25,316 bases of DNA from a virus. The notes under the pieces are model-generated. The model worked only from the letters and a program-made list of their open reading frames with translations, was not told the origin of the DNA and ran no database searches. The stretch is from positions 1 through 25,316 of IMG/VR virus record IMGVR_UViG_3300010885_019835. One strand, written 5' to 3'. Both the position numbers and the translations under genes were made by a program. Every line of letters starts with the position of its first letter. Position 1 is the first letter of the stretch. Below are positions 3,384 to 23,599 of this stretch, piece by piece.

Positions 3384-4328
3384 TTAGATAGTAGATACGG
3401 CTTGACTGGTATAGATAGAAGTTCCCATTCTAAATTTCCCCATCAGATTTACGATATCTTGACTTGGATCGTAGTACATTTTGAAGGAATCCATATCATC
3501 AAGCAGACCTGTACCGAAGTAAACATACTTTTTCGGTGCAAGGATGATGTGGGTGTCTACGTTAATTCCACCGCATGCGCTGATTTGAACGTTAGTTCCA
3601 GGCCATGTGAAGAATGATGGAGAATCTCCAGTTGTGTTAGAAATGTTAGGGTACTGGGTGATTAACGCATTACCTTGAGCCATTAAAGATTGAACTGCGA
3701 TCTGGTAGTTGGTGTACGACATGTACATGATCAAATCGTTTTCTTGCTTAAGAGCGTTAGACAATTTGTTGATGATTCCCCAGATAGTAGCAAATGCAGA
3801 TCCAACTGCTAGAGGTACAGTGATACCTGCGCCTGTTCCAGAAATACATCCGTTAGCTACAGTTGCCTGAGCCAAAAGACCATCTAGGTTAGACCCGTCA
3901 CCCTGCCAGATTGTGTTTTCCACGTACTGTTGGATGTTAGCAATTTTGTTGTTAGCAATTTGAGCTTCGAAAGGAACTGACTCAAGATAAGCCCCGGGGC
4001 TAAGCTGAGAAGATAACCAAAAATCGTATAAGTCGCTCGGGCAGAGTTGTTCCTTCAACATTTTCGACTGAACTACAAGGTTCAATTGAGTGAATACGGT
4101 AGAGTTACCGGTTGCTCCACCTGGTCCAACTGTTGATGCGTTGAATCCGCAAGTTGTGTCTAGGATGTAAGCGTTAGAATTAAGCAAGTTGATTGCAGAT
4201 GATCCAGCAGTTTTACCTGCAAGAACTGTCAAAAAACTTACTGAGTATGGCTTCAACAGCGCTTTGCTGATAAGTTCAGTACTCAATTGGTCGGTGTAGG
4301 CTGATAAGCCGGCTAATGAAAATGACAT
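3384..4328 (-). CDS. Major capsid protein
   Basis: This 314-residue protein is called as the shell-forming HK97-fold capsid subunit. Evidence: it directly follows a scaffold-like gene and a maturation-protease gene, has the expected size, an N-terminal helical arm (residues 1-35), a long central helix-rich part (SPGAYLESVPFEAQ...IANIQQYVENTIWQGDG, like the spine-helix region), and a C-terminal part with APKKYVYFGTGLLDDMDSFKMYYDP that looks like the P domain and last strand. A VGPGGATGNS loop lies near residue 70. The leader is A/T-rich without a purine-rich ribosome site. The gene is closed by a terminator hairpin. No cleavable N-terminal delta domain is evident, consistent with the separate scaffold gene. 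Confidence 0.8.
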   Translation of the reverse strand: MSFSLAGLSAYTDQLSTELISKALLKPYSVSFLTVLAGKTAGSSAINLLNSNAYILDTTCGFNASTVGPGGATGNSTVFTQLNLVVQSKMLKEQLCPSDLYDFWLSSQLSPGAYLESVPFEAQIANNKIANIQQYVENTIWQGDGSNLDGLLAQATVANGCISGTGAGITVPLAVGSAFATIWGIINKLSNALKQENDLIMYMSYTNYQIAVQSLMAQGNALITQYPNISNTTGDSPSFFTWPGTNVQISACGGINVDTHIILAPKKYVYFGTGLLDDMDSFKMYYDPSQDIVNLMGKFRMGTSIYTSQAVSTI

Positions 4329-4353
4329 AGTTTTAGTTTATTATTTTATTTTG

Positions 4354-4953
4354 TTAGAATTTTCTTGTTTTTGCAAGTTCAGCTCTTAGTGTGTTAAGGC
4401 CTTCTATTCTTGCGTCTACAGCATCTACTGGAGTTGCTGGTTCGTTGTTGAATGTAGAAATTTTAGTTGCTGCTGGAGTCTTAGACATCTTTTCCATTTT
4501 AGCTCTGAAAGCTGTCATTTCTTCTTTGATGCTACCAACTTCTTTAGCCACTTCTTCTACCGCCATCATAATTTTCTCCATTGCTTGTGCAACTTTGTCT
4601 TCCTCTGCTGCTGCTGGTTCTTCAGCTGCTGCTGGTTCTTCTTTAGCTGGTTCTTCAGCTGCTGCTGCAACTTCTTCTGCAACTTCGCCTACTTCTTCTT
4701 CTGGAGCTTCAACTTGTGTGATCGTGCCTTCCGCATCGACATAAACTTCCGTGCCGTCTTCTAGTTCGTGGATACCTTCAGGTGCTGGTGCTTTGGTGCC
4801 ATCTTCTGCTACTACGTAGATTTTAGATCCTGGCTCCAAAGTCTCCGCAGAAACTTTAGTTACCCCATCCTTTAGAACTGCATCAACAAGCTTAACGTCC
4901 ATTCCAAGAGCGATCTTGATTGCGTTTAATTTGTTTAGATAATAATTGTTCAT
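4354..4953 (-). CDS. Scaffold-like capsid assembly protein
   Basis: This 199-residue acidic protein lies between the maturation protease and the capsid gene, the classical place of scaffolding proteins. Residues 1-75 form a small beta-rich domain (GSKIYVVAEDGTKAPAPEG...LEDGTEVYVDAEG). Residues 80-120 are an Ala/Glu-rich low-complexity stretch (EEPAKEEPAAAEEPAAAEE). Residues 118-160 are a predicted amphipathic coiled coil (VAQAMEKIMMAVEEVAKEVG). The basic C-terminal tail (LRAELAKTRKF) would suit contact with the capsid protein. Presumably it is removed by the protease before packaging; that is inference from family behaviour. Confidence 0.65.
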   Translation of the reverse strand: MNNYYLNKLNAIKIALGMDVKLVDAVLKDGVTKVSAETLEPGSKIYVVAEDGTKAPAPEGIHELEDGTEVYVDAEGTITQVEAPEEEVGEVAEEVAAAAEEPAKEEPAAAEEPAAAEEDKVAQAMEKIMMAVEEVAKEVGSIKEEMTAFRAKMEKMSKTPAATKISTFNNEPATPVDAVDARIEGLNTLRAELAKTRKF

Positions 4954-5022
4954 AGATTTTATTTGTTTATTTTATAGGTTAAACACAGTTAAGTATATTA
5001 GAAATCCAAGATGGCATTTCTC

Positions 5023-7011
5023 TTACACAGATTTTAGAATTTTCATGACACGGTCGTACAGTTGTCTATCTTTTTTGTAAGATTCATAATCTTTTTCTGA
5101 CATAAAAGAACCTTCGATACTGAAACCGTTGAGTTTACCAGCTTTAATTGCCTTCCAAACCATTGGATCTACAACTCTCATCTTGATCATCCAGGTGCCG
5201 ACTGGAACGTCAAAACCATACATAGAGTTGGCCTTGTCTTCTGCATTTTCTACCAACCATGTTTCCATGACGTAGGAACCTGCATCTGAACCTGCTTCGT
5301 GCTGCACATTGGTGTCGTGATTACGTAGTTCACGCATAAACTTCTCTGCAATTCTCTTCACAACATCTTGGGAGAAAGAAACCCAATAAGGTTCGCCCGT
5401 CTCTTCGTCTTTACGAACTATTTCCATGTCAGGAATCATTGCTGGTCCAACAACAATCTGTTGGTCTTCAGATGTAAAGATTTGTTTCTTCATTTCCAGG
5501 GGACGTTGGGTATGATACCCCAGATAAACTGTGTTTGCTGCAGCTGAAACTGGCTGTCCGTCTACCTTTACCTCTTGGGGAACAACGTTATCTACTGTGT
5601 TGTACCAGTATTTCACATCGTATCCACCTGTATTCTTTAGTTCTACTGTTAAACCGTGCTTAGGGGTGTCCTGGCCAGCTACAATAGTTAGCACATGCCC
5701 CCTTGCAATTGTGACAGAAGGGTCGGTAGACACTGGAGATGCACTTAATTCTGGCAATTCTGAGGTTAAAGCAGGGTAGTCTGCCATGGTTAGAGTGTGT
5801 CCATCTTCAGAAAGATCAGAAGCAATCTCAGAAAGTCTGTGTAAATCCACGTCATTCTTGATGTCTTCCTTGGCAAGTTCCATTAATCTAATGAAAAGTG
5901 GCACATCTAAGGTGATTGTATCAACTAAATTCTCGAATTTCTCCTTCTTTTTCTTACCTGTTTGGTCGGTATAAGCTGGTAAATCTAGAACATAGTCAAA
6001 ATCTTCGCCTCTTATTTCCCTTAATTTGTTGTGTGCCCAGCGAATGCCAGCGTCTCCGCCCCAAGCATCCCACATAAGTTTGCCACAACCTTCTGAATAT
6101 GGAGTGTCAGAATTTTGTCTGTGTCTTTCAAAAGCAGACATGCGGGCAATTGTATCTTCGGAAATTGGTTCACGATTAGCAAGTTGGTTAGCACGTGCTT
6201 TACCTGCTCCCATTCCGCAGTCTCCCCAGCCATTTTTGTCTGCCCATTCAAGAGCACGTTTGGCGTTGTTGACTGCACCTTCTGGGTAGTCTGTATAAGT
6301 TTCAGCAGCTAAAAAGAATTTAACCCCGTTAGCCCCGAGTTGCTTGACAACATCCGAGTTGTTATCTATGTGTTGGTCGATTCCTAACTCTTTAACTTTA
6401 GCAACCTTAGCCTCGTTAGACCCTGTAGCAAATACACGACTTGTAGGAATATCTAACTCTTTAGCACGGGCAAGCATACCTTTAGATATCTTGTTACGTG
6501 CAGAAATAATGTAGAGAGTATCTCCTGCTTCTTTATTCTTCATTGCAACTCTAAGACCATCTCCGGTAGACAAAGTGTCGTCGTAATCAAAAGAAACTTT
6601 AGAGTAACCATAAGAAACTCCCATTTCTGGGAAAGCATCTAAGTCCAAGGGTAGATCTTTTGCATTCTTAACTGGAATACAGTTGGGTGTGCCATCGTCT
6701 TTTAGTCCGTATGGCTCGTAGCCTGCCCAGCAAGGATTAGGTTCTATGTTAAACTTAGCAGCATGATTTTGCCATACTGAATAGCAGATAGCTGCTGCTT
6801 GGTCTGTATCTTTTCCTTCGTTGACATTGTAGGCTATGCAGCGTGGGATAAAATCGGTTTCGCGTTCTCCTGAATTTGGTTCTACAAACTCTTGACGCTT
6901 GAACGCCATCCAATCTCTATCGATTGCTGGCACGTCGACCAGAGAAATCTTAGAAACACCAGATTCTTCTACGTCGTCTATGATTTCTAGGGGAATAACT
7001 TTTCTTTCCAT
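5023..7011 (-). CDS. XkdF-like prohead maturation protease fused to HAD-like and other domains
   Basis: The C-terminal part (about 515-640) matches the layout of XkdF-like phage serine proteases (Peptidase_S78_2): VVGPAMIPD, a helix RIAEKFMREL, NVQHE with candidate catalytic His571, ETWLVEN, GTWMIKMRV, and GFSIEG with candidate Ser631. The N-terminus (GVSKISLVDVPAI, 18-30) is a segment I also associate with this family. Between them lie a cysteine-containing stretch (54-85, RCIAYNV...AAAICYSVW), a HAD-like domain (137-226) with FDYDDTL (Asp142, Asp144, Thr146), IISARN (Ser170) and DNNSD (216-220), and a domain with ARANQLANRE and WGGDAG (about 246-340). It should act in the immature capsid, cleaving the scaffold. 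The phosphatase-like domain is the odd feature. The reading frame is intact across all parts. Confidence 0.75.
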   Translation of the reverse strand: MERKVIPLEIIDDVEESGVSKISLVDVPAIDRDWMAFKRQEFVEPNSGERETDFIPRCIAYNVNEGKDTDQAAAICYSVWQNHAAKFNIEPNPCWAGYEPYGLKDDGTPNCIPVKNAKDLPLDLDAFPEMGVSYGYSKVSFDYDDTLSTGDGLRVAMKNKEAGDTLYIISARNKISKGMLARAKELDIPTSRVFATGSNEAKVAKVKELGIDQHIDNNSDVVKQLGANGVKFFLAAETYTDYPEGAVNNAKRALEWADKNGWGDCGMGAGKARANQLANREPISEDTIARMSAFERHRQNSDTPYSEGCGKLMWDAWGGDAGIRWAHNKLREIRGEDFDYVLDLPAYTDQTGKKKKEKFENLVDTITLDVPLFIRLMELAKEDIKNDVDLHRLSEIASDLSEDGHTLTMADYPALTSELPELSASPVSTDPSVTIARGHVLTIVAGQDTPKHGLTVELKNTGGYDVKYWYNTVDNVVPQEVKVDGQPVSAAANTVYLGYHTQRPLEMKKQIFTSEDQQIVVGPAMIPDMEIVRKDEETGEPYWVSFSQDVVKRIAEKFMRELRNHDTNVQHEAGSDAGSYVMETWLVENAEDKANSMYGFDVPVGTWMIKMRVVDPMVWKAIKAGKLNGFSIEGSFMSEKDYESYKKDRQLYDRVMKILKSV

Positions 7012-12298: not shown

Positions 12299-14269
12299 TT
12301 AGAAACTTTGAACTACGTCTGGTTGTGATTCTGTGAAAGACACGAAGTATTGGAAAAGCTTTTCTCTTACTGTTGTGTTCACGCTGTAAGATGCATCTGT
12401 GATTGTCACCATAGTTGGTTGGGATCTTCCTGGCAGATAAACAAGCACTTGGGGAGAAGCAAACATGCCTCTGAGGAATGCAGATGTGTCGTCTGTAATC
12501 CAGTCGGTTGATGCCGTCCAAGTGTTGGTTAGATCTGCCCTGAAGATTTGTGTGCCCCAGCGTGCCGGTGAATTATCTTGGACATTGTATGAAGCTGCTG
12601 ACCAGTAGCCTTGTAGCTTATACAGGGTTGCCCTATTTGCATTCTGTGTGTTCGTGTTGCGCTTGATGAACGTGTAGTAATCTCTGCCACCCAAGTTGTT
12701 CAACCAGGAGAATCTAATTGGATCAAATCCCCAACAGTTGGTATCGTTAATGGTCAGACACATTGTCTCTGATTCTGCTGTTGCACCTATTGAGCAAGAT
12801 CCATAGGTGTCGTAAGGGTATAAAGTAAGACACATTTTGTCGAACGTGCTTACCTGTGTGGTGGTTATGTTCCAAGCGTTGATAACCGGGAAGCCCGCAG
12901 GTGATGGGTAGTCGTAAGGCCCAACGTAAGTCTGGTTCCACTGTCCTGAATTTTGGATCTGAAATCTTAGCCCAAGTGCATAGTACTTCTTGGTTGTTGT
13001 GCCTGCAAATGTATAGTAGATAAAAGTAGCAGGCGATTGCGTCTGGGTAAATACCCCTACCTTCTCCCAGTTTGCTCCTGCTCCTAAAGTTGCTGAAGTT
13101 GTTCCCCAGAGTTGTAATTCTGGGTAGGTTGTTCCCCAGGTGTTAGCCGACTGCAACTGTAAATCTAAAACTGATCCTGTTGCTGCCACCATTGCCTTGT
13201 AAACAATCTCGGTGGAACCTGTCGCCCCTGTGTAGGGAAGTGCAGTCAGCCAGGTGTTGTCGTCTGTTAGGATACTAACTGCTCCTGTGTAGGGGGGAAC
13301 TAAGTTGGTGTCCACCGTAGATCCAAAAACCCCACCAAACCCAGAAGGTGAATAAGGTCCAAACTGCCATTGGTAGTATGGGGGATCAGTCTGTGGTGCC
13401 CAGAGATCAAACTTATCTCTGGTGATCGTTGATGTGGTTATGTCTGCTGGGTTGATCTTAAAAGAAGAAATATACCGCTGAGCTCCGGTTGGTCCGCCCG
13501 GCCAGGTGGAACAAGTTGTCCAGTTCCCGCCGTTAGCAACTGTGTTGTAGTAGATCTCCTCACCGACATACACATCTTGGTTGTACAAACTTACCACCAT
13601 CGCATAAGGAACTGATGCTGGTCCAGTCGCTGCTTCGAAGTTGTAGTTCAGCCAGGAGATAGTAAAGTCTTCGTCCGAACGTATCTCTTGGCTTAGACCT
13701 GGGTACCTTGTTAGCCACTTTCCACCAGCATCTATATCGGTAGACTTGGCCATTGTATACTGCAGAACTGTTTCCCCACCAGCTGCTAGGTAGTCGTAGT
13801 ACTGGATAGCCGATTGGCCCCAAGACAAAGTTACAACTGGGGTAGTTGCATTCGGAGCAGGTCTGAAGTTGCCATCTGCATATAAGCCGTAGGCTGGTTG
13901 GCCTGTAGCTCCGTTAACCCCGTTATACATTAAGATGTCTCCGTTAGCCCCGATGGAATACTCTTCACCTGCTAGAATATACACGGTGCCACACAAACCT
14001 TCTCCATTAGTAAACGGGACATTAGACAACATCGGCAGGTTAATAGTGAAATTTAGTTCTCCCTGTGCAAGAGCGTTAACGTCTATTATACCTTTGCCGT
14101 ATGGGTTTGGTGGCGTCTTAAATCTGATTGCTGCCGTTGCACCCCCAACATAGACGTCGAAGACATACTTGAAGTTGTAGTTGCCCGTTGCATCAGAGTC
14201 TACCATCCAGACTAAGGGATTGTAGACGCTAGAGAATATTGGTGGGGACTGAAGAGTCTGTGTTATCAT
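12299..14269 (-). CDS. Large tail structural protein (656 residues)
   Basis: This beta-rich protein has no membrane segment. The N-terminus (residues 1-75: SSVYNPLVWMVDS...KYVFDVYVGG...TPPNPYGKGIIDV) and the C-terminus (about 540-656: NNLGGRDYYTFIKRN...FLRGMFASPQVLVYLPG...PTMVTITDASYSV) resemble ends of tail or baseplate proteins of Bacteroidota phages as I know them. The central part carries several GATG-, AATG- and GPTG-bearing loops and could be a surface-exposed insertion. Its ATG overlaps, as ATGA, the stop of the -1 frame of the upstream chaperone gene, which ties its translation to the frameshift product. It may be a distal tail or tail-tip component; the precise role is not shown. Confidence 0.6.
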   Translation of the reverse strand: MITQTLQSPPIFSSVYNPLVWMVDSDATGNYNFKYVFDVYVGGATAAIRFKTPPNPYGKGIIDVNALAQGELNFTINLPMLSNVPFTNGEGLCGTVYILAGEEYSIGANGDILMYNGVNGATGQPAYGLYADGNFRPAPNATTPVVTLSWGQSAIQYYDYLAAGGETVLQYTMAKSTDIDAGGKWLTRYPGLSQEIRSDEDFTISWLNYNFEAATGPASVPYAMVVSLYNQDVYVGEEIYYNTVANGGNWTTCSTWPGGPTGAQRYISSFKINPADITTSTITRDKFDLWAPQTDPPYYQWQFGPYSPSGFGGVFGSTVDTNLVPPYTGAVSILTDDNTWLTALPYTGATGSTEIVYKAMVAATGSVLDLQLQSANTWGTTYPELQLWGTTSATLGAGANWEKVGVFTQTQSPATFIYYTFAGTTTKKYYALGLRFQIQNSGQWNQTYVGPYDYPSPAGFPVINAWNITTTQVSTFDKMCLTLYPYDTYGSCSIGATAESETMCLTINDTNCWGFDPIRFSWLNNLGGRDYYTFIKRNTNTQNANRATLYKLQGYWSAASYNVQDNSPARWGTQIFRADLTNTWTASTDWITDDTSAFLRGMFASPQVLVYLPGRSQPTMVTITDASYSVNTTVREKLFQYFVSFTESQPDVVQSF

Positions 14270-14538
14270 CTTAACTTAGTTAAATTTAGTTTTTGTTTTT
14301 TTATCTCGTCCTTTCTCCAAGCAAGCCAGTTAAGGGCTGCTCTAAGAGGTAGGGCTGAAGCTGCATCAAATCGGAGGGGATCTTCTCCAGAAAGGACGTT
14401 AACGAGAATCCACCAGGATCTTGCGGGAGAGACCTTTCTAGCTCCGCCAGGTCTTGGAGGAGTGTCGAGCTGTTCTTCTCCGTGCTCGAAGAGTCCAGCA
14501 TATTCTTTAGAGATTGACTTGCTGACAGCAAAAAAAAA
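14266..14538 (-). CDS. -1 frame extension of tail assembly chaperone (gpGT-like fusion)
   Basis: Slipping back one base at the run of nine T (14530-14538) opens about 90 more codons ending at the TGA at 14266-14268. The fusion from 15050 would be 261 residues. The extension reads as real protein: a flexible Pro/Gly-rich linker, then SWWILVNVLSGEDPLRFDAA...LRAALNWLAWRKDE and a basic helix. Its stop overlaps the next start as ATGA, the same coupling seen at other gene joints here; the 0-frame stop lies 31 bases short of that start. Programmed -1 frameshifting is conserved in tail chaperone genes of many long-tailed phages. A sequencing error in the T run is the main alternative, and would also make this frame the real C-terminus. 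Confidence 0.65.
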   Translation of the reverse strand, partial: FFFAVSKSISKEYAGLFEHGEEQLDTPPRPGGARKVSPARSWWILVNVLSGEDPLRFDAASALPLRAALNWLAWRKDEIKKQKLNLTKLR

Positions 14539-15050
14539 GTGTTAGCAGATTTGATAACAGATAAGGGTAGGAACTGAAACAGTTTCACCCGCTTTCTCAT
14601 GCCTTCTACTGTGTACTTTTCCAGCTTGATGTAGTCCTCGTCTTCTTCTTCGATCGGGCGATACAGAATAGCTGCAATCTCTGCAAGTTTAGTTTCTGAG
14701 TTCTGCCCAGAAGCTATGACATCTAGATCTGCAAACTCTCCAAGACTAATGTCTTCGATGGAGGGCAGACCATATCTTGTTCCCATAAATTCGATCACTG
14801 GAACAATTGATGTGGTGGATTCAGAGTTGCCCAGAAGCATCTCTCTAACTTCTTCCCACAGAAAGTACCAGTCGGCAAACTTAATTTCCTTCAGAGTTTC
14901 TTTTGGGCACCCAGATAGGTACTCGACTATTTCGTACGGGGTTTCTTCCTCGGTCTCCTGCAGCATGCCCAGCACCTCTTTGTAGTTGGCAAGGGTTACA
15001 TCTTTTACGACGTACTCTTGTTTGCCAATCTTAAATTCTATCTTGTTCAT
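14301..15050 (-). CDS. Tail assembly chaperone, 0-frame product (lambda gpG-like)
   Basis: This 249-residue reading frame follows the gp10-like gene with an ATGA overlap. In siphophages this position holds the tail assembly chaperones that load the tape measure for tube polymerisation. Residues 1-170 are compact and acidic (IEFKIGKQEYVVKDV...EVREMLLG...SLGEFADLDV...AAILYRP...FLPLSVIKSANTFF). At codons 171-174 (ACT TTT TTT TTG) there is a run of nine T containing the slippery heptamer T TTT TTG. The 0 frame continues another 75 residues to the TAA at 14301, while the -1 frame stays open to 14266 and reads as better protein. Sequence similarity to lambda G is not claimed; the call rests on position and the frameshift. 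Confidence 0.6.
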   Translation of the reverse strand: MNKIEFKIGKQEYVVKDVTLANYKEVLGMLQETEEETPYEIVEYLSGCPKETLKEIKFADWYFLWEEVREMLLGNSESTTSIVPVIEFMGTRYGLPSIEDISLGEFADLDVIASGQNSETKLAEIAAILYRPIEEEDEDYIKLEKYTVEGMRKRVKLFQFLPLSVIKSANTFFLLSASQSLKNMLDSSSTEKNSSTLLQDLAELERSLPQDPGGFSLTSFLEKIPSDLMQLQPYLLEQPLTGLLGERTR

Positions 15051-16270: not shown

Positions 16271-17512
16271 TTACCACTCCTCTGCCGGAGTTTTTTTCGT
16301 TGTTCCCATGACTGCATATTTAGGTGAGTCTCCCTTGTCGTGTGACAGGGCATACCTGAAGGCATCCATGAGGTGATTGTGTGCATCTATCGGCTGGTCA
16401 GTCCCAGTCCTGTAGGCATACTGGTAGTATTCCTGGATTAGATTAGCTGACTCGGGGTGGACATGCACTTCGTACCCACGGATCTTTTGGATTCCGGCCC
16501 TTATTGAATCTGAACCTTTGGTTGCCGACCTTATGTTTCTATAGCCAAGCCTCCGAAGTTCCTCGATTGACTTGGGCTCTGCTGAGTCTGCTATGATTAC
16601 CTGGTGTTTCTCTATCCCACAGGTTTGCATTAGGTCTGCTATGTCTGGGTTAGTTAGCCCTTGGTGGTGGAGAATCTCCTGCACCCACAGACGTTTGCCC
16701 CGCTTAAGCACCTTAACCATCGCTGTTGGATCCGAAGAGAACCCGAAGTCTAAGCCGTATAGCACCTCTGCATCCTGTGGGGGTTCCCAGTCGAAATGCC
16801 AAGACTTAAACACCTGCCCTTCGCCAATATCACGCCACTGACCCTCAATGTGGTGGGCAAAGTACTCGGTGTCCTGAAACTGTAGGTCTTCCCACTCTTT
16901 AATCTTAGTGGGATCCAGATTGTCTCTGTTGTCTCTGTATGTTGTGTGCAGATAGCCATGGTTCGAAGTCCACTTGGGATTGGGTCGCCCGTCCGGCAGA
17001 TAGAACCTTTTAAAGATCCAGTGGGACTTAGCAGTCGGGTTAAACAACAAAAAGATCTTTCTTTCACTGCCCTTCTGTCTAAACGAATCTATCAGCTTTA
17101 GATACTCTTCTTCGCTTGGCAACTCTACTGCTTCATCGACAAGTAAATGAGTTACACGGGCAAGCCCTTTTCCTTTGGCCGAAATTGTGCCCTCTGCCAA
17201 CTTCATGGCATGGGTAATAATCATGTTGCCGTTGCGTTTGTTTAGTATCTCATCCCCTTTAATTTCAAGGTAAGAGTCCAAAGACCATTGGGTAATTAAG
17301 TCGGTTATGTCCCTATAAATAGAGTTGGTCAAGGCTTTCGACGTATATCTCGAGATCACCCCCCGGAAGTAATCTTGAGACATAAGTTTGACCAGGAAGT
17401 AGGCCGCAATGTTCGTAGATTTCCCAGAACCTCTGCCCCCACTGATCACCCAGTAGGTCTTGTCCTCCCAAAATATCGGGGCATACGCTGGAAGAAATTC
17501 GAACTTGCTCAT
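16271..17512 (-). CDS. terL: Terminase large subunit (PBSX-like)
   Basis: This 413-residue protein is the motor that packages DNA into the prohead. The N-terminal ATPase has Walker A SGGRGSGKST (residues 24-33), Walker B THLLVDEAVE (121-130, Glu127 catalytic candidate) and a coupling-like FLLFNPT (154-160). The C-terminal RNase H-like nuclease has acidic residues Asp255 (YGLDFGFSSDP), Asp309 (IIADSAEP) and Asp383 (HLMDAFRYAL). Length and motifs fit the Terminase_3/PBSX family. Its ATG overlaps the stop of the small subunit gene (ATGA). It is separated from the portal gene by about 7 kb of replication and unknown genes, an uncommon order. Confidence 0.93.
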   Translation of the reverse strand: MSKFEFLPAYAPIFWEDKTYWVISGGRGSGKSTNIAAYFLVKLMSQDYFRGVISRYTSKALTNSIYRDITDLITQWSLDSYLEIKGDEILNKRNGNMIITHAMKLAEGTISAKGKGLARVTHLLVDEAVELPSEEEYLKLIDSFRQKGSERKIFLLFNPTAKSHWIFKRFYLPDGRPNPKWTSNHGYLHTTYRDNRDNLDPTKIKEWEDLQFQDTEYFAHHIEGQWRDIGEGQVFKSWHFDWEPPQDAEVLYGLDFGFSSDPTAMVKVLKRGKRLWVQEILHHQGLTNPDIADLMQTCGIEKHQVIIADSAEPKSIEELRRLGYRNIRSATKGSDSIRAGIQKIRGYEVHVHPESANLIQEYYQYAYRTGTDQPIDAHNHLMDAFRYALSHDKGDSPKYAVMGTTKKTPAEEW

Positions 17513-23559: not shown

Positions 23560-23599
23560 ACTGTATATATTATAGCGGCTGATGGACCATAAATTTCAC

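Follow-up and report, generated by a model that had tools for sequence, protein, structure and literature searches.

A conserved run of nine T joins two C-terminal reading frames in a putative phage tail-assembly chaperone gene, with transcriptional slippage as a candidate mechanism

Frameshifting in tail-assembly chaperones is textbook ribosomal recoding. In phage lambda, gpG and gpGT are produced from one start, and the longer protein carries a -1 extension. Chaperones of this type are encoded in the tail module, between the major tail protein and the tape measure, bind the tape measure and tail tube proteins, and are missing from virions. The lambda shift takes place close to the end of G, and in the tail chaperones characterised so far it is the ribosome that shifts (PMC5009743). 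Phage P2 makes gpE and gpE+E' from a slip site in a T run, T6G, that forms one heptamer (PMC3091744), and the -1 extension runs into the next gene. Programmed slippage of RNA polymerase has been described for the A9 run of Thermus dnaX and for spa13, spa33, mxiA and mxiE of Shigella (PMC1088944, PMC5009743), where slippage on a homopolymer gives C-terminally different products. In many bacteria, nine A or T is the run length from which genomes show signs of selection against slippage in transcription (PMC1088944).

The gene analysed here lies in a viral record of 25,316 nucleotides (hereafter, the window), in which Pfam and PHROGs searches identify a terminase, a Peptidase_S78_2 protein and a tape measure protein (Table 1). 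Codons 171-174 of the open reading frame are ACT TTT TTT TTG. The first-pass annotation of this DNA had described nine T with T_TTT_TTG in frame (14535-14529, minus strand), a -1 frame that stays open for about 90 codons and meets the 656-residue gene in an ATGA joint, and a 0-frame stop 31 nt short of the start of that gene, at 14269. All of these proved correct, and the run contains a second in-frame heptamer, T_TTT_TTT (14538-14532, codons 171-173). In the -1 frame, a TAA lies 6 nt upstream of the run, and the window has no ATG, GTG or TTG near the run in this frame. The -1 frame ends in the TGA that overlaps the ATG of the next gene.

Table 1. Features of the recoded gene and its neighbours in the window
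Feature	Coordinates	Strand	Description
ORF with the T run	15050-14301	minus	249 aa, 0-frame product
N-terminal domain shared by both predicted products, codons 1-170	14541..15050	minus	ORF, 70% identity to L002
T9 candidate slip site	14530..14538	minus	T9 in 38/41 lineages, kept beyond encoded amino acids
C-terminal tail in the 0-frame, 78 codons counted from the run	14301..14537	minus	stop TAA 14303-14301
-1 frame C-terminal tail, about 90 codons	14266..14538	minus	stop TGA 14268-14266
ATGA overlap of -1 stop with next gene start	14266..14269	minus	L002 has the same overlap
Next gene, probably for a structural tail protein of 656 aa	12299..14269	minus	49% identity to its homolog in L002
Tape measure protein, 786 aa	7033..9393	minus	PHROG 991 tape measure, E = 4.6e-5
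Terminase large subunit	16271..17512	minus	Pfam Terminase_3 and Terminase_3C, PHROG 2

The locus resembles lambda gpG/gpGT in several respects. Two products are predicted from one start, one of them with a -1 extension, in a tail module before the tape measure gene, and the conserved junction and both tails, as read from the sequence, are of the same design. The analogy to lambda G/GT and the junction with the next start, both drawn in the first-pass annotation, hold up against homologs. However, the gene has no detectable sequence relation to the lambda gene, the tape measure gene is two large genes away, and both frames are open for 78-90 codons, whereas lambda shifts near the end of G. The likeness to P2 gpE/gpE+E' lies in the T-run slip site, the -1 extension into the next gene and the lack of an obvious stimulator; unlike P2, the gene here has a T9 run of fixed total length and changing phase, and its product is named by neither Pfam nor PHROGs matches. 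It had been remarked that a T-run heptamer ending in TTG is less common in phages than G or A runs, which may be fair, yet P2 E/E+E' uses exactly TTTTTTG (PMC3091744). With Thermus dnaX and the Shigella genes, the gene would share homopolymer slippage and C-terminally different products, although the open-licence literature that we found reports no transcriptional slippage in a phage tail chaperone.

We infer a role as a tail-assembly chaperone from the position of the gene in the tail module and from its two-product architecture. The gene lies upstream of the tail genes and the tape measure gene, no major tail protein was recognised, and the first-pass identification stays putative: no Pfam or PHROGs profile names the protein. 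Neither VIA-align nor a fold search against the PDB returned a meaningful match. In Foldseek searches, the N-terminal domain matched only uncharacterised phage proteins, and the best named match was a tail assembly chaperone at E = 0.054. AlphaFold models most blocks of the N-terminal domain with pLDDT of about 90 and predicts a long helix (residues 163-191) that spans the junction. The remainder of the 0-frame tail is modelled with low confidence, and the model of the -1 tail is helical with a mean pLDDT of 81.

We propose that this one gene gives rise to two proteins with a common N-terminal domain of 170 residues and different C-terminal tails. Templated transcripts with nine U would be read in the 0-frame to give the 249-residue form. 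RNA polymerase would slip on T9 and produce a minority of transcripts with one extra U (or two fewer), on which ribosomes would translate the -1 tail as far as the TGA overlapping the next start; this overlap may couple translation to that of the tail gene. By position and design, the two products would act like the lambda gpG/gpGT chaperone pair. That recoding of some kind takes place at T9 seems almost certain. That it is RNA polymerase, rather than the ribosome, that slips is in our view only slightly more probable than not, and we place the explanation as a whole, polymerase slippage included, at the same level.

The run is both rare and conserved. It is the only A/T run of at least 8 in the 25-kb window, and 220.9 kb of related coding sequence outside the chaperone gene contain no A/T run of at least 9, where synonymous shuffles predict 5.6. 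For the amino acids encoded in the 0-frame and the codon usage, a lineage would keep every T of the run with a probability of 0.058 (geometric mean over 36 lineages), and the log10 P summed over these lineages is -44, a value that treats lineages as independent despite their shared ancestry. Relatives were fetched by the next gene, the N-terminus and the -1 tail (loci L003-L119; the next gene alone fetched 80 loci) and, together with one Flavobacterium locus (L120), were clustered at 80% identity into 41 lineages. In this set, which was collected with a run of at least 8 as a condition, T9 is found in 38 lineages, T10 in two and T11 in one, and all 41 thus have a homopolymer of about nine or longer (threshold from PMC1088944). 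T9 and the -1 tail occur together in all 20 lineages of the clade of the window and are also kept in its distant relatives; the first relative, L002, carries the same T9.

A separate census, made with a profile of the -1 tail and no condition on run length, gave a similar picture. Loci in which the two parts lie in different frames have T9-T11; in the others the parts form a single in-frame fusion and, L041 with its T10 apart, lack a run of this kind. The exceptions are one clade from bacterial genomes with T7 or T8, which stands apart from the rest, and L175, where a bacterial genome carries a diverged second copy with a T8 run. L168, L173 and L174 were left out of the analysis. Six relatives are fused in one frame and have no slip run (L022, L023, L027, L049, L076 and L094), and L119 likewise has a single frame. 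Judging from these relatives, gains or losses of the two-product state have therefore occurred repeatedly.

Within the phages, the length of the run is fixed and its phase is not. The run stands in phase 0 in one of the 41 lineages, in phase 1 in 21 and in phase 2 in 19. Depending on the phase, the two extra T beyond the heptamer follow it, flank it or precede it (0+2, 1+1 and 2+0), and in 38 of the 41 lineages they add up to two, for a run of nine (Fisher P about 1e-9, uncorrected for shared ancestry, which inflates the significance of all our counts). A tree of 64 sequences needs at least six phase changes; it was built by a quick method, has several long branches and carries an L175 row that is mislabelled by one base and one phase, and the conclusions drawn from it are independent of L175. 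Neighbouring rows of this tree, L125/L128 and L060/L070, all have T9, and the phases differ within each pair. Nine prophage-like loci found in Bacteroidota genomes by the tail-profile search also have T9 in varied phases. A transcriptional slip site works in every codon phase, and its phase may vary. We take a fixed length with a varying phase as the mark of homopolymer length, and so of transcriptional slippage as the probable mechanism in the T9 clade.

The bacterial clade, a sister of the T9 relatives, has the opposite pattern. Its runs are T7, sometimes T8 and once T9, and at the loci examined the phase is always the one that makes T_TTT_TTT. We take a fixed phase with a varying length as the mark of a ribosomal heptamer, and read the recoding in this clade as probable ribosomal -1 frameshifting. 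Taken jointly, these patterns would describe a large, unnamed family of Bacteroidota phage chaperones that controls how much of each form is made through polymerase slippage on exactly T9, with dual-coded tails, and that has bacterial homologs using a ribosomal slip on T_TTT_TTT. We judge the case for and against this combined reading to be evenly balanced.

Somewhat less probable in our view, though not by much, is that the long form is made in the phages by programmed -1 ribosomal frameshifting, with a tandem slip on T_TTT_TTT or T_TTT_TTG like those of lambda G/GT and P2 E/E+E'. Every T9, whatever its phase, contains an in-frame T_TTT_TTT, so such a shift could always occur, and the homologous chaperones from bacterial genomes have T7 or T8 in the heptamer phase. 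Tail chaperones that shift into the -1 frame are already known (PMC5009743), and P2 E uses T6G without a stimulator (PMC3091744). However, a heptamer needs seven T, yet T9 is kept in three phases, T7 and T8 are absent from the phage clade, and no other type of heptamer is found in place of the T run. Nor was a stimulator found, though such an element is usual rather than obligatory and P2 lacks one too: a Shine-Dalgarno-like sequence lies upstream in only 1 of the 41 lineages, and downstream structure does not go beyond that of shuffled sequences (mean z of -0.24 and -0.51). The programmed -1 frameshift proposed in the first-pass annotation thus survives as programmed access to the -1 frame, which holds against homologs, but a ribosomal shift is not clearly the best mechanism for it because selection acts on the total length of nine and not on one heptamer phase.

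Both C-terminal tails appear to be functional. One concern had been that homologs might match only the 0-frame C-terminus. Instead, both tails are conserved, and between the window and L002 the -1 tail (78% identity) is better conserved than the 0-frame tail (65%; the N-terminus and the next protein are given in Table 1). Homologous -1 tails are found in phages and in bacterial genomes. The 0-frame C-terminus, in turn, is no leftover, and its open length, synonymous constraint and identity indicate that it is under selection itself. If only the -1 tail were selected, synonymous choice would usually break the 0-frame. The 0-frame tail is nevertheless open in every lineage of the window clade, and its open length under a null with selection on the -1 frame only has P values from <0.001 to 0.04 in the 20 lineages, typically about 0.003.

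Conservation of synonymous codons in the -1 frame gives the extent of the overlap. In the window clade, this conservation is 1.50 times expectation in the tail versus 1.11 in the N-terminus. In a second viral clade, the 0-frame tail is about 49-87 codons long and can stop as many as 45 codons early; -1 synonymous conservation there is raised over about the first 50 codons and has a value of about 0.95 thereafter. Amino acid identity in the 0-frame is 0.339 in the window clade versus 0.235 under the null; in the second clade, it is 0.406 versus 0.241 in the overlap and 0.255 versus 0.256 past the 0-frame stop. The z-values of these comparisons are inflated by shared ancestry, but the same ancestry underlies the N-terminal and post-stop controls. 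As far as these codon comparisons go, the -1 synonymous constraint is found about as far as the 0-frame is open and ends with it, which argues for a long dual-coded overlap. We think it very likely that both tails are encoded by the same DNA and that both are selected. The post-stop control, which is internal to the same sequences, points to selection on the 0-frame tail as protein rather than as RNA structure.

RNA structure was considered as a cause of the synonymous constraint and is disfavoured, as the constraint stops with the 0-frame and the z-scores are ordinary. Chance openness of the frames was rejected.

We consider it unlikely that the 0-frame is kept open only to hold ribosomes until the next gene, and not for its protein, a proposal that is compatible with either slip mechanism. 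The 0-frame stop is indeed near the next start in the window clade. However, the 0-frame amino acids are conserved above what the -1 constraint predicts, and in the second viral clade, where the 0-frame ends early, the excess conservation ends there too. Still less probable, to a degree that leaves it little room, is that the -1 tail is a separate gene with a start inside the chaperone gene. L002 has a GTG early in its -1 tail and the annotators of phage P12024S called a short ORF there, but the window has no possible start of this kind near the beginning of the -1 tail, and the conservation of T9 would be left without a reason.

We find it scarcely credible that T9 is a sequencing or assembly error in what is truly a simple in-frame fusion: although the six relatives named above are truly fused and L041 has T10 (5049-5058) with its N-terminus and -1 tail in frame on a contig 96% identical to T9 relatives, the same T9 is present in over 100 loci, some of them from isolate phages and some from bacterial genomes, and selection on the 0-frame tail has no explanation under fusion. 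The fusion in L041 is either a natural variant or an assembly error. The first-pass annotation had raised the prospect of reads with another number of T, and against this the same T9 recurs in independent contigs.

Cultured phages carry relatives of the dual-coded gene. A tblastn search of cultured phages with the window protein and three relatives gave no match, and Nonlabens (Persicivirga) phages P12024S and P12024L were reached only through Foldseek, by way of P12024S gp38 (P12024S_38), and are linked in by prophage-like intermediates: L127 and L166 match both phages across both frames. P12024S (JQ823122) has T9 at 23578-23586, a -1 tail open for about 83 codons and a 0-frame tail of 27 codons; P12024L has T9 as well. 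P12024S gp38 and P12024L gp40 are thus like the gene here in fold, tail, T9 and open -1 tail, and differ in the shortness of the 0-frame tail and in the position of the chaperone gene directly after terminase. Their open reading frames are annotated as hypothetical and are deposited as separate proteins (L123:23136-23830 and L126); each split pair is probably one recoded gene. In Flavobacterium phage 6H, a weak, distant fold relative (L124:10352-10927) has a T6 run that is directly followed by a -1 frame stop, and its tail-like reading frame lies beyond this stop.

If transcriptional slippage on T9 is correct, this would be the first tail chaperone of this kind to come up in the open-licence literature searched, and it would have a homologous, probably ribosomal, counterpart. 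In dnaX, a split between transcriptional and ribosomal slippage is known, and a split of this kind would now extend to phage tail assembly. A cultured phage-host pair exists, P12024S or P12024L on Persicivirga sp. IMCC12024. With the dual-coded overlap, gene-calling programs would overlook one member of a selected protein pair in many aquatic phages, and the "short" form would possess a selected end of its own.

The closely related chaperone tail of the separate bacterial clade is common: of 400 genomes from a single Bacteroidota order, that of genome G491 (loci L129-L165), 86 carry it. It occurs mostly once per genome, and in L130 it lies beside a terminase gene. So frequent a copy may belong to a prophage that is widespread, or may be a tail element that has become domesticated. 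As for the rest of the window, a tail-fibre-like ORF with long GTSGTSG collagen-like repeats occupies positions 1-2061. A protease gene (Peptidase_S78_2) and a capsid-like gene follow the tape measure gene at 3384-7011, and the head module thus seems to come after the tail module.
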